Part shown: positions 37,725 through 38,114 of the stretch, piece by piece
Numbering within the stretch: position 1 is the stretch's first letter
Layout: each line of letters opens with the position of its first letter
NCBI GenBank assembly: GCA_021806605.1
Contig: JAJZQY010000002.1
Coordinates: 1-64,000, forward strand
Direction of reading: 5' to 3'
Origin: Pseudomonadota bacterium
GTDB lineage: Bacteria; Pseudomonadota; Gammaproteobacteria; Burkholderiales; JABEVD01
Length of the DNA: 64,000 nucleotides
Program-made: the position numbers and the translations under genes
Notes under the pieces: generated by a model
The model's database searches: none
What the model saw: the letters and a program-made list of their open reading frames with translations, nothing else
What the model was told of the DNA's origin: nothing

Positions 37725-37753
37725 TTGACAACGACTCTCAGGCGGACTATTAA
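37725..37753 (+). promoter_or_regulatory. Strong sigma-70-like promoter of the small secreted protein gene
   Basis: TTGACA at 37725-37730, a 17-base spacer and TATTAA at 37748-37753. The -35 is a perfect consensus. The gene starts 28 bases further on, after AGGAGGA. Confidence 0.7.
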
Positions 37754-37767
37754 TGATAATCGATCTA
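37749..37767. promoter_or_regulatory. Fur-box-like sequence overlapping the -10
   Basis: The 19 bases contain TAATGATAATC and match about 13 of 19 positions of the classical Fur box when aligned by eye. It overlaps the -10 and start region of the promoter above, the position expected for repression by iron-loaded Fur. Part of the match comes from general AT-richness. Confidence 0.4.
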
Positions 37768-37781
37768 TTTAGGAGGATGAC

Positions 37782-38114
37782 ATGAGATACGCCCTGATTC
37801 TGGCCCTGCTGGTGCCGCAACTGGCTCTTGCGCAAGGCGCCATCACCATCCTGTCGCCCAAGGACGGCGCAACCCTTTCCAGCGGGATGGGGAACAAACT
37901 CGAATACAACGTCAAACTGGGTCCGACAGGCAATCACCTGCATGTCTATGTCGACAACCAGGATCCTATCGTAGACCGCAACGTGAGCGGTTGCCCATGC
38001 AGCATCGATCTTCCCGACCTTTCCCCGGGCAAGCATTCCATCGTGGTCAAGGAAGCAACCGCCGGCCATGTTTTGACCGGTTTGCAATCCGGGGTGACGG
38101 TGACCGTCAAATAG
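37782..38114 (+). CDS. Small secreted protein of unknown function
   Basis: A 110-residue protein with a clear signal peptide (MRYALILALLVPQLALAQ, cleavage after Ala-Gln/Ala region) and a short beta-rich mature part: ITILSPKDGATLSSG, GNHLHVYVDNQDPIVD, a CPC motif (NVSGCPCSIDL), and LPDLSPGKHSIVVKEATAGH. The pattern resembles a small Ig-like or DUF4399-like sandwich. His-x-His and Cys-Pro-Cys could bind metal, but that is speculation. It has an excellent ribosome site (AGGAGGA) and a consensus promoter with a Fur-like box. The end overlaps the converging cfa gene by 8 bases. Confidence 0.75.
   Translation: MRYALILALLVPQLALAQGAITILSPKDGATLSSGMGNKLEYNVKLGPTGNHLHVYVDNQDPIVDRNVSGCPCSIDLPDLSPGKHSIVVKEATAGHVLTGLQSGVTVTVK

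Follow-up and report, generated by a model that had tools for sequence, protein, structure and literature searches.

A predicted Fur box at the gene for a small secreted Ig-like protein, candidate half of a two-gene module

The 64,000-nt stretch of DNA analysed here (the window; G000:C27:1-64000, from a genome that is 82% complete) contains a gene for a small secreted protein that we propose to be the Fur-repressed periplasmic half of a two-gene module, undescribed and probably metal-handling; we give this reading as a whole an even chance of being right. In the proposed mechanism, iron-loaded Fur would sit on a box over the -10 element and block RNA polymerase. When cytosolic Fe(II) drops, a strong -35 element and ribosome-binding site would drive synthesis of a secreted Ig-like domain of ~93 residues, and this domain would work in the periplasm with a small inner-membrane protein of four transmembrane segments (4-TM), encoded elsewhere in this genus. 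The residues of an HxH and a CPC motif would probably bind a metal ion and pass it to or from the 4-TM partner. Regulation by iron is well supported by the sequence, and it is the molecular function that we infer.

The gene, its promoter and a predicted Fur box

The gene lies on the plus strand (37782 to 38114, from the ATG to the end of the stop codon) and, according to the ORF list, its orthologues and AlphaFold2, encodes a secreted Ig-like protein of 110 aa that carries the motifs HxH (H52, H54) and CPC (C71, C73). A -35 element TTGACA (37725 to 37730), a -10 element TATTAA (37748 to 37753) after a 17-nt spacer, a ribosome-binding site AGGAGGA (37771 to 37777) and a signal peptide (37782 to 37832) can be read directly from the same strand, where the first-pass annotation had placed them along with the two motifs. 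By eye, the signal peptide is MRYALILALLVPQLALA|QG, with the cut expected after ALA (residue 17); the mature part then has 93 residues, and the 92 given in that annotation would apply only if cleavage followed Q18. The signal peptide suggests a periplasmic location for the mature domain. TTGACA is common to five of the six genus orthologues, with TTGACT in L006. TATTAA agrees with TATAAT at four of six positions, and TA[TA][TCG]AA occurs at the equivalent -10 place in all six orthologues; a strict promoter scan listed none for the target gene because the sixth -10 base is not T. The left neighbour, a gene for a TPM-domain protein (37549 to 36878), is divergent and the right neighbour, a gene for a cyclopropane-synthase-type protein (39417 to 38107), is convergent. 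Because both are on the minus strand, the target gene stands alone, and an operon with either neighbour is ruled out. The cyclopropane synthase gene separates the target gene from a gene for an rRNA-methyltransferase-like protein in the window, L002, L003 and L004 and is missing from that spot in L005 and L006, which points to a local insertion or loss.

The annotation had proposed a Fur-like box over the -10 element from 13 matches in 19 positions. This count, obtained at 37749 to 37767 against GATAATGATAATCATTATC, is correct, but the best 19-mer of ordinary ~3-kb stretches from the genus also reaches 11 to 14 matches, so that 13 of 19 alone is no evidence for a Fur site. We therefore rejected counting matches to the E. 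coli Fur consensus as evidence; the site itself is upheld by conservation and by a Fur matrix from the host genus, the check that the annotation had suggested. A Fur gene (PF01475 above cut-off) is present in all nine genus genomes, as are feoB loci, and a clear Fur-type box, AATGAGAAT[T/G]GTTCTT[AT/GA]T in the genus feoAB promoters, lies upstream of feoA in every one. The second source of boxes was an operon that encodes a secreted, outer-membrane-like protein and, in six genomes, carries near-perfect boxes; the gene was viewed in five of these (L118, L123, L190, L183 and L175), and L191 was included on the strength of a site identical to that of L183. The resulting matrix comprised seven distinct sites from feoAB and the outer-membrane-type operon, with the target gene excluded. 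No site above background was found at TonB receptor promoters (30 of the 50 listed matches) or at the fur loci themselves.

Two observations concern these other Fur-type sites. The outer-membrane-like protein has ~270 residues and no Pfam match in the two examples scanned, and in L190 its gene is followed by one for an LTXXQ/Gly-His-Met-rich protein; given the boxes, this gene set is likely a Fur operon. Seven of the nine genus genomes contain repeats of the AATGATAATGATAATGATAC type, among them one 25 kb past the end of the window (G000:C27:89723). Those in the three viewed loci (L189, L195 and L185) are near an alternative-complex-III-like operon that includes genes for a multihaem cytochrome c and for a molybdopterin/Fe4S4 protein, and such repeats may act as Fur-type sites for a respiratory complex.

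With the genus matrix, the predicted Fur box AATGATAATCGATCTATTT (37752 to 37770, plus strand, overlapping the -10 element) scored 14.1 bits and ranked first of the 63,982 window positions, the next reaching 10.8; it ranked second with a feo-only matrix and first with a matrix of the other sites only. First-order Markov copies of the window reached 14.1 bits ~0.5 times per copy (in 16 of 40 copies). Because a random 64 kb reaches the score this often, the rank in the window is weak alone, and the case for a Fur box rests on position and conservation. Orthologues with CPC were found in six of the nine genus genomes; two of the other three are 88-89% complete and the third, G003, is 99% complete. 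In all six orthologues, the best matrix site within -150 to 0 is at the equivalent place, with 14.1 bits in the window, 17.7 in L002, 20.6 in L003, 17.8 in L004, 11.3 in L005 and 17.9 in L006. The window site, whose right half-site is poor, is thus the second weakest after that of L005. The pattern CTTGAC...CTA..AAT.A.A.TC is invariant over these otherwise diverged promoters, and the left neighbour of the window gene differs from that in L003, L004 and L006.

Pattern searches gave a similar picture. The 13-mer AATGAKAATCRWT occurs six times in the nine genomes, three of these hits being the promoter of this gene (reversed-pattern control, 0), and its single occurrence in the window's own genome is the target promoter. 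A looser genus box pattern, searched with up to three mismatches, matched four of the six orthologue promoters (G004, G005, G006 and G008), and its reversed control gave 0 in eight of nine genomes; the window site has four mismatches by manual count, and the L005 site is also outside the limit. The target promoters show a T-to-G switch, GATAAT/GAGAAT, and the same switch separates the feo from the outer-membrane boxes.

These data bear on the possibility that the site is a chance product of an AT-rich -10 region or belongs to another regulator. The background-level consensus count and a matrix score reached ~0.5 times per random 64 kb speak for chance, and a second FUR-family protein in eight of the nine genomes supplies another candidate regulator. 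Nevertheless, the site is kept in six of six diverged promoters, including the GATAAT/GAGAAT switch, and since the matrix was partly trained on feoAB, a regulator of feoAB would be expected to bind the target promoter too. We consider chance or another regulator a distinctly improbable explanation. Control of the target gene by Fur is highly probable on this sequence evidence, in keeping with the iron response that the annotation had predicted. The annotation had also suggested high expression; under Fur, however, the gene would be shut down in iron-replete conditions, and its -10 element agrees with the consensus at only four of six positions.

The protein family: fold and motifs

The annotation had placed the protein outside the named iron systems, and as far as searched this holds: there was no Pfam match at cut-off and nothing in NCBIfam or among PDB sequences. 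Partial-domain matches to DUF6130 (PF19625; E 0.024, 14.9 bits against a cut-off of 23.7) and to the bacterial Ig family Big_7 (PF17957; E 0.035, 15.2 bits against 24.1) stayed below threshold, and the relative L028 reached 24.0 bits for Big_7. Over 62 family members at E≤0.01, Pfam matches were to Big_7 (26), DUF6130 (19), BiPBP_C (18) and CopC (2), with none for the window protein. Structure prediction, another check that had been proposed, gave an all-beta model of seven strands (AlphaFold2 with a 62-row alignment; pLDDT 89.4, pTM 0.77). It matched the Ig/FnIII fold (3pe9, Z 10.9, rmsd 2.1 over 83 residues; 9kvu by Foldseek, E 5.8e-6), and the best structural neighbours were ordinary Ig/FnIII modules and the Ig-like domain of sulfite oxidase. 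We conclude that the window protein is predicted to be an Ig/FnIII-fold domain.

A scan of genome contigs found 98 relatives, of which 80 were kept, 32 with CPC and 48 without. By record titles, the CPC relatives come from this genus (5), Gallionella (11), Ferrovum (3), Ferrovaceae (1), Nitrosomonadales (2), Polynucleobacter (2) and unspecified Proteobacteria (8); Gallionella, Ferrovum and Ferrovaceae are known iron oxidisers. HxH, which lies on one strand, is nearly invariant (91 of 99 family loci). CPC is present in 38 of the 99 loci, corresponding to 33 distinct genes since five were counted twice, and marks one clade. All 99 loci have exactly two domain cysteines, as CPC in 38 and as a pair elsewhere in 61, placed in the last two strands in the alignment rows shown. 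The pair has moved within the family, CPC (window residues 71 to 73) being a three-residue insertion.

The Fur site follows only part of this family. It ranked first within the locus in 6 of 6 genus loci, 2 of 27 other CPC loci (both far upstream), 0 of 52 non-CPC relatives and 1 of 9 genus paralogues, where the 3.3-kb genus loci present an easier test than the loci of the others, mostly 6 to 12 kb. Non-CPC relatives thus keep HxH but not the Fur box, which we count against the proposed reading, as we do the three genus genomes in which no CPC orthologue was found.

Linkage to a predicted four-helix membrane protein

Of 79 loci outside the window's genus, 75 have a gene for a ~135-aa 4-TM protein downstream on the same strand, less than 300 nt away (4 of 4 in L007-L010, 26 of 27 in L026-L052 and 45 of 48 in L053-L100), and in the four exceptions it is 766 to 1133 nt away. 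No other neighbour was widespread among the non-CPC relatives. In the Gallionella-type loci, mutL-like and pntAB-like genes, identified by eye, flank the module and suggest no function. None of 15 distinct loci from the window's genus has the 4-TM gene beside the target family gene, yet eight of the nine genomes encode the protein at another locus. There the uncoupled gene (L228:822-1878, equivalents in L227-L234) follows a gene whose short secreted product shows only weak, sub-threshold similarity to Secretin_N. No Fur box was found at this partner locus in the genus, so co-regulation of both genes is not seen there. The linkage supports a two-gene module of a secreted Ig-like protein and a 4-TM protein, whose products may be physical partners. 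As far as searched, the module is undescribed in family libraries and in the literature on a Fur box or IscR in Gallionella, Thiobacillus and betaproteobacteria and on DUF6130.

AlphaFold2 predicted four helices for the 4-TM partner (pLDDT 92.4). Its invariant residues include H13, N14, Q48, P67, D68, K80, C83, R124 and W125, among them one His, one Cys and one Lys. We rejected the identification of the partner with CopD or with a haem b protein: CopD was matched by none of 28 members, and the Pfam hits that they gave were weak and scattered. The PDB yielded no fold of significant similarity (best E 0.25), and a missing match does not speak for a new fold.

What the pair does is the more tentative part of the interpretation. 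One explanation is that the gene is Fur-controlled but its product, instead of carrying metal, is an Ig-like accessory with a structural or redox role. It could, for instance, serve a membrane or respiratory protein as an assembly or disulfide factor, and its two conserved cysteines would be joined in a disulfide whose place in the fold has shifted. The constant cysteine count, the ordinary character of the nearest structures and a partner with one invariant His, Cys and Lys each would all fit such a role. An Ig domain with no more than a structural role would, however, rarely keep HxH near-invariant on one strand, and iron-type control in two lineages suggests a role with metal. We regard an accessory of this kind as a serious but unlikely alternative, and metal handling through HxH and CPC as possible, at slightly under even chances.

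Possible iron-type control in other lineages, and known systems

The second lineage is that of the Gallionella-type orthologues. With an IscR matrix built only from iscR promoters of Gallionella-type genomes, a box resembling IscR type 1 ranked first in the locus, at -43 to -57, in 10 of 18 loci (L026-L043), where many promoters are closely related and the TTGAC also resembles a -35 element. The boxed loci match the type 1 consensus ATASYYGACTRWWWYAGTCRRSTAT at 19 to 22 of 25 positions. First ranks were obtained in 0 of 6 genus loci, 11 of 27 other CPC loci (one at -94), 1 of 9 genus paralogues and 7 of 52 non-CPC relatives, and five of these last seven sit on a TTGAC that is possibly a -35 element. 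Neither a Fur nor an IscR site was found in the Ferrovum and Polynucleobacter relatives. Because the Gallionella promoters are close relatives, IscR-type control of these orthologues is suggestive only, and we read the box as a separate clue to control by iron or Fe-S status. A more ambitious reading is that a clade centred on acid-water iron oxidisers gained CPC in an undescribed metal-transfer module, consisting of a secreted Ig-like metal carrier and a novel 4-TM inner-membrane protein, and came under iron control on two occasions, through Fur in this genus and through IscR in Gallionella; we hold this full version to be unlikely, at about one chance in four.

Residents of ferrous-iron-rich water should seldom starve for iron, which makes their Fur- or IscR-controlled genes informative. 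The pair of small proteins is testable, the way it is regulated suggests a link to iron or Fe-S stress, and lineages near those that dominate mine-water treatment carry it.

Acid mine waters are often rich in copper, and the pair might by analogy handle copper as CopC and CopD do; control by iron would then be secondary, a consequence of the damage that copper does to Fe-S clusters. The layout is alike, an exported beta sandwich with a polytopic membrane protein, and Cys and His suit Cu(I). The CopC model (PF04234) matched 2 of 62 relatives at E≤0.01 (best E 0.00089, below cut-off), and for the window protein no match was listed at E≤10. The mature N-terminal His of CopC is a copper ligand, whereas the predicted mature N-terminus here is Gln (Gln18-Gly19). 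The four-helix partner also differs in giving no CopD match among the 28 members, and a Fur box predicts a response to iron, not copper. A copper-handling pair therefore seems improbable to us.

The closest parallels for the proposed iron control are regulatory. The E. coli consensus and Pseudomonas iscR site B agree with the site of the IscR matrix, as far as the consulted part of that account goes (PMC3899308). The isc promoters regulated through IscR type 1 sites, as presented there, resemble the Gallionella-type boxes; the difference is that the box here is on a gene for a secreted protein and is absent from the window's genus. In the Fur regulon of Acidithiobacillus (feoABC/feoP, mntH), a Fur box overlaps a sigma-70-like promoter, according to the portion of the report consulted (PMC2631029). 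The predicted box in the window is placed likewise, and feoAB is boxed in all nine genus genomes. The target here is instead a secreted Ig-like protein, a type not among the targets described in that portion of the report (PMC2631029).
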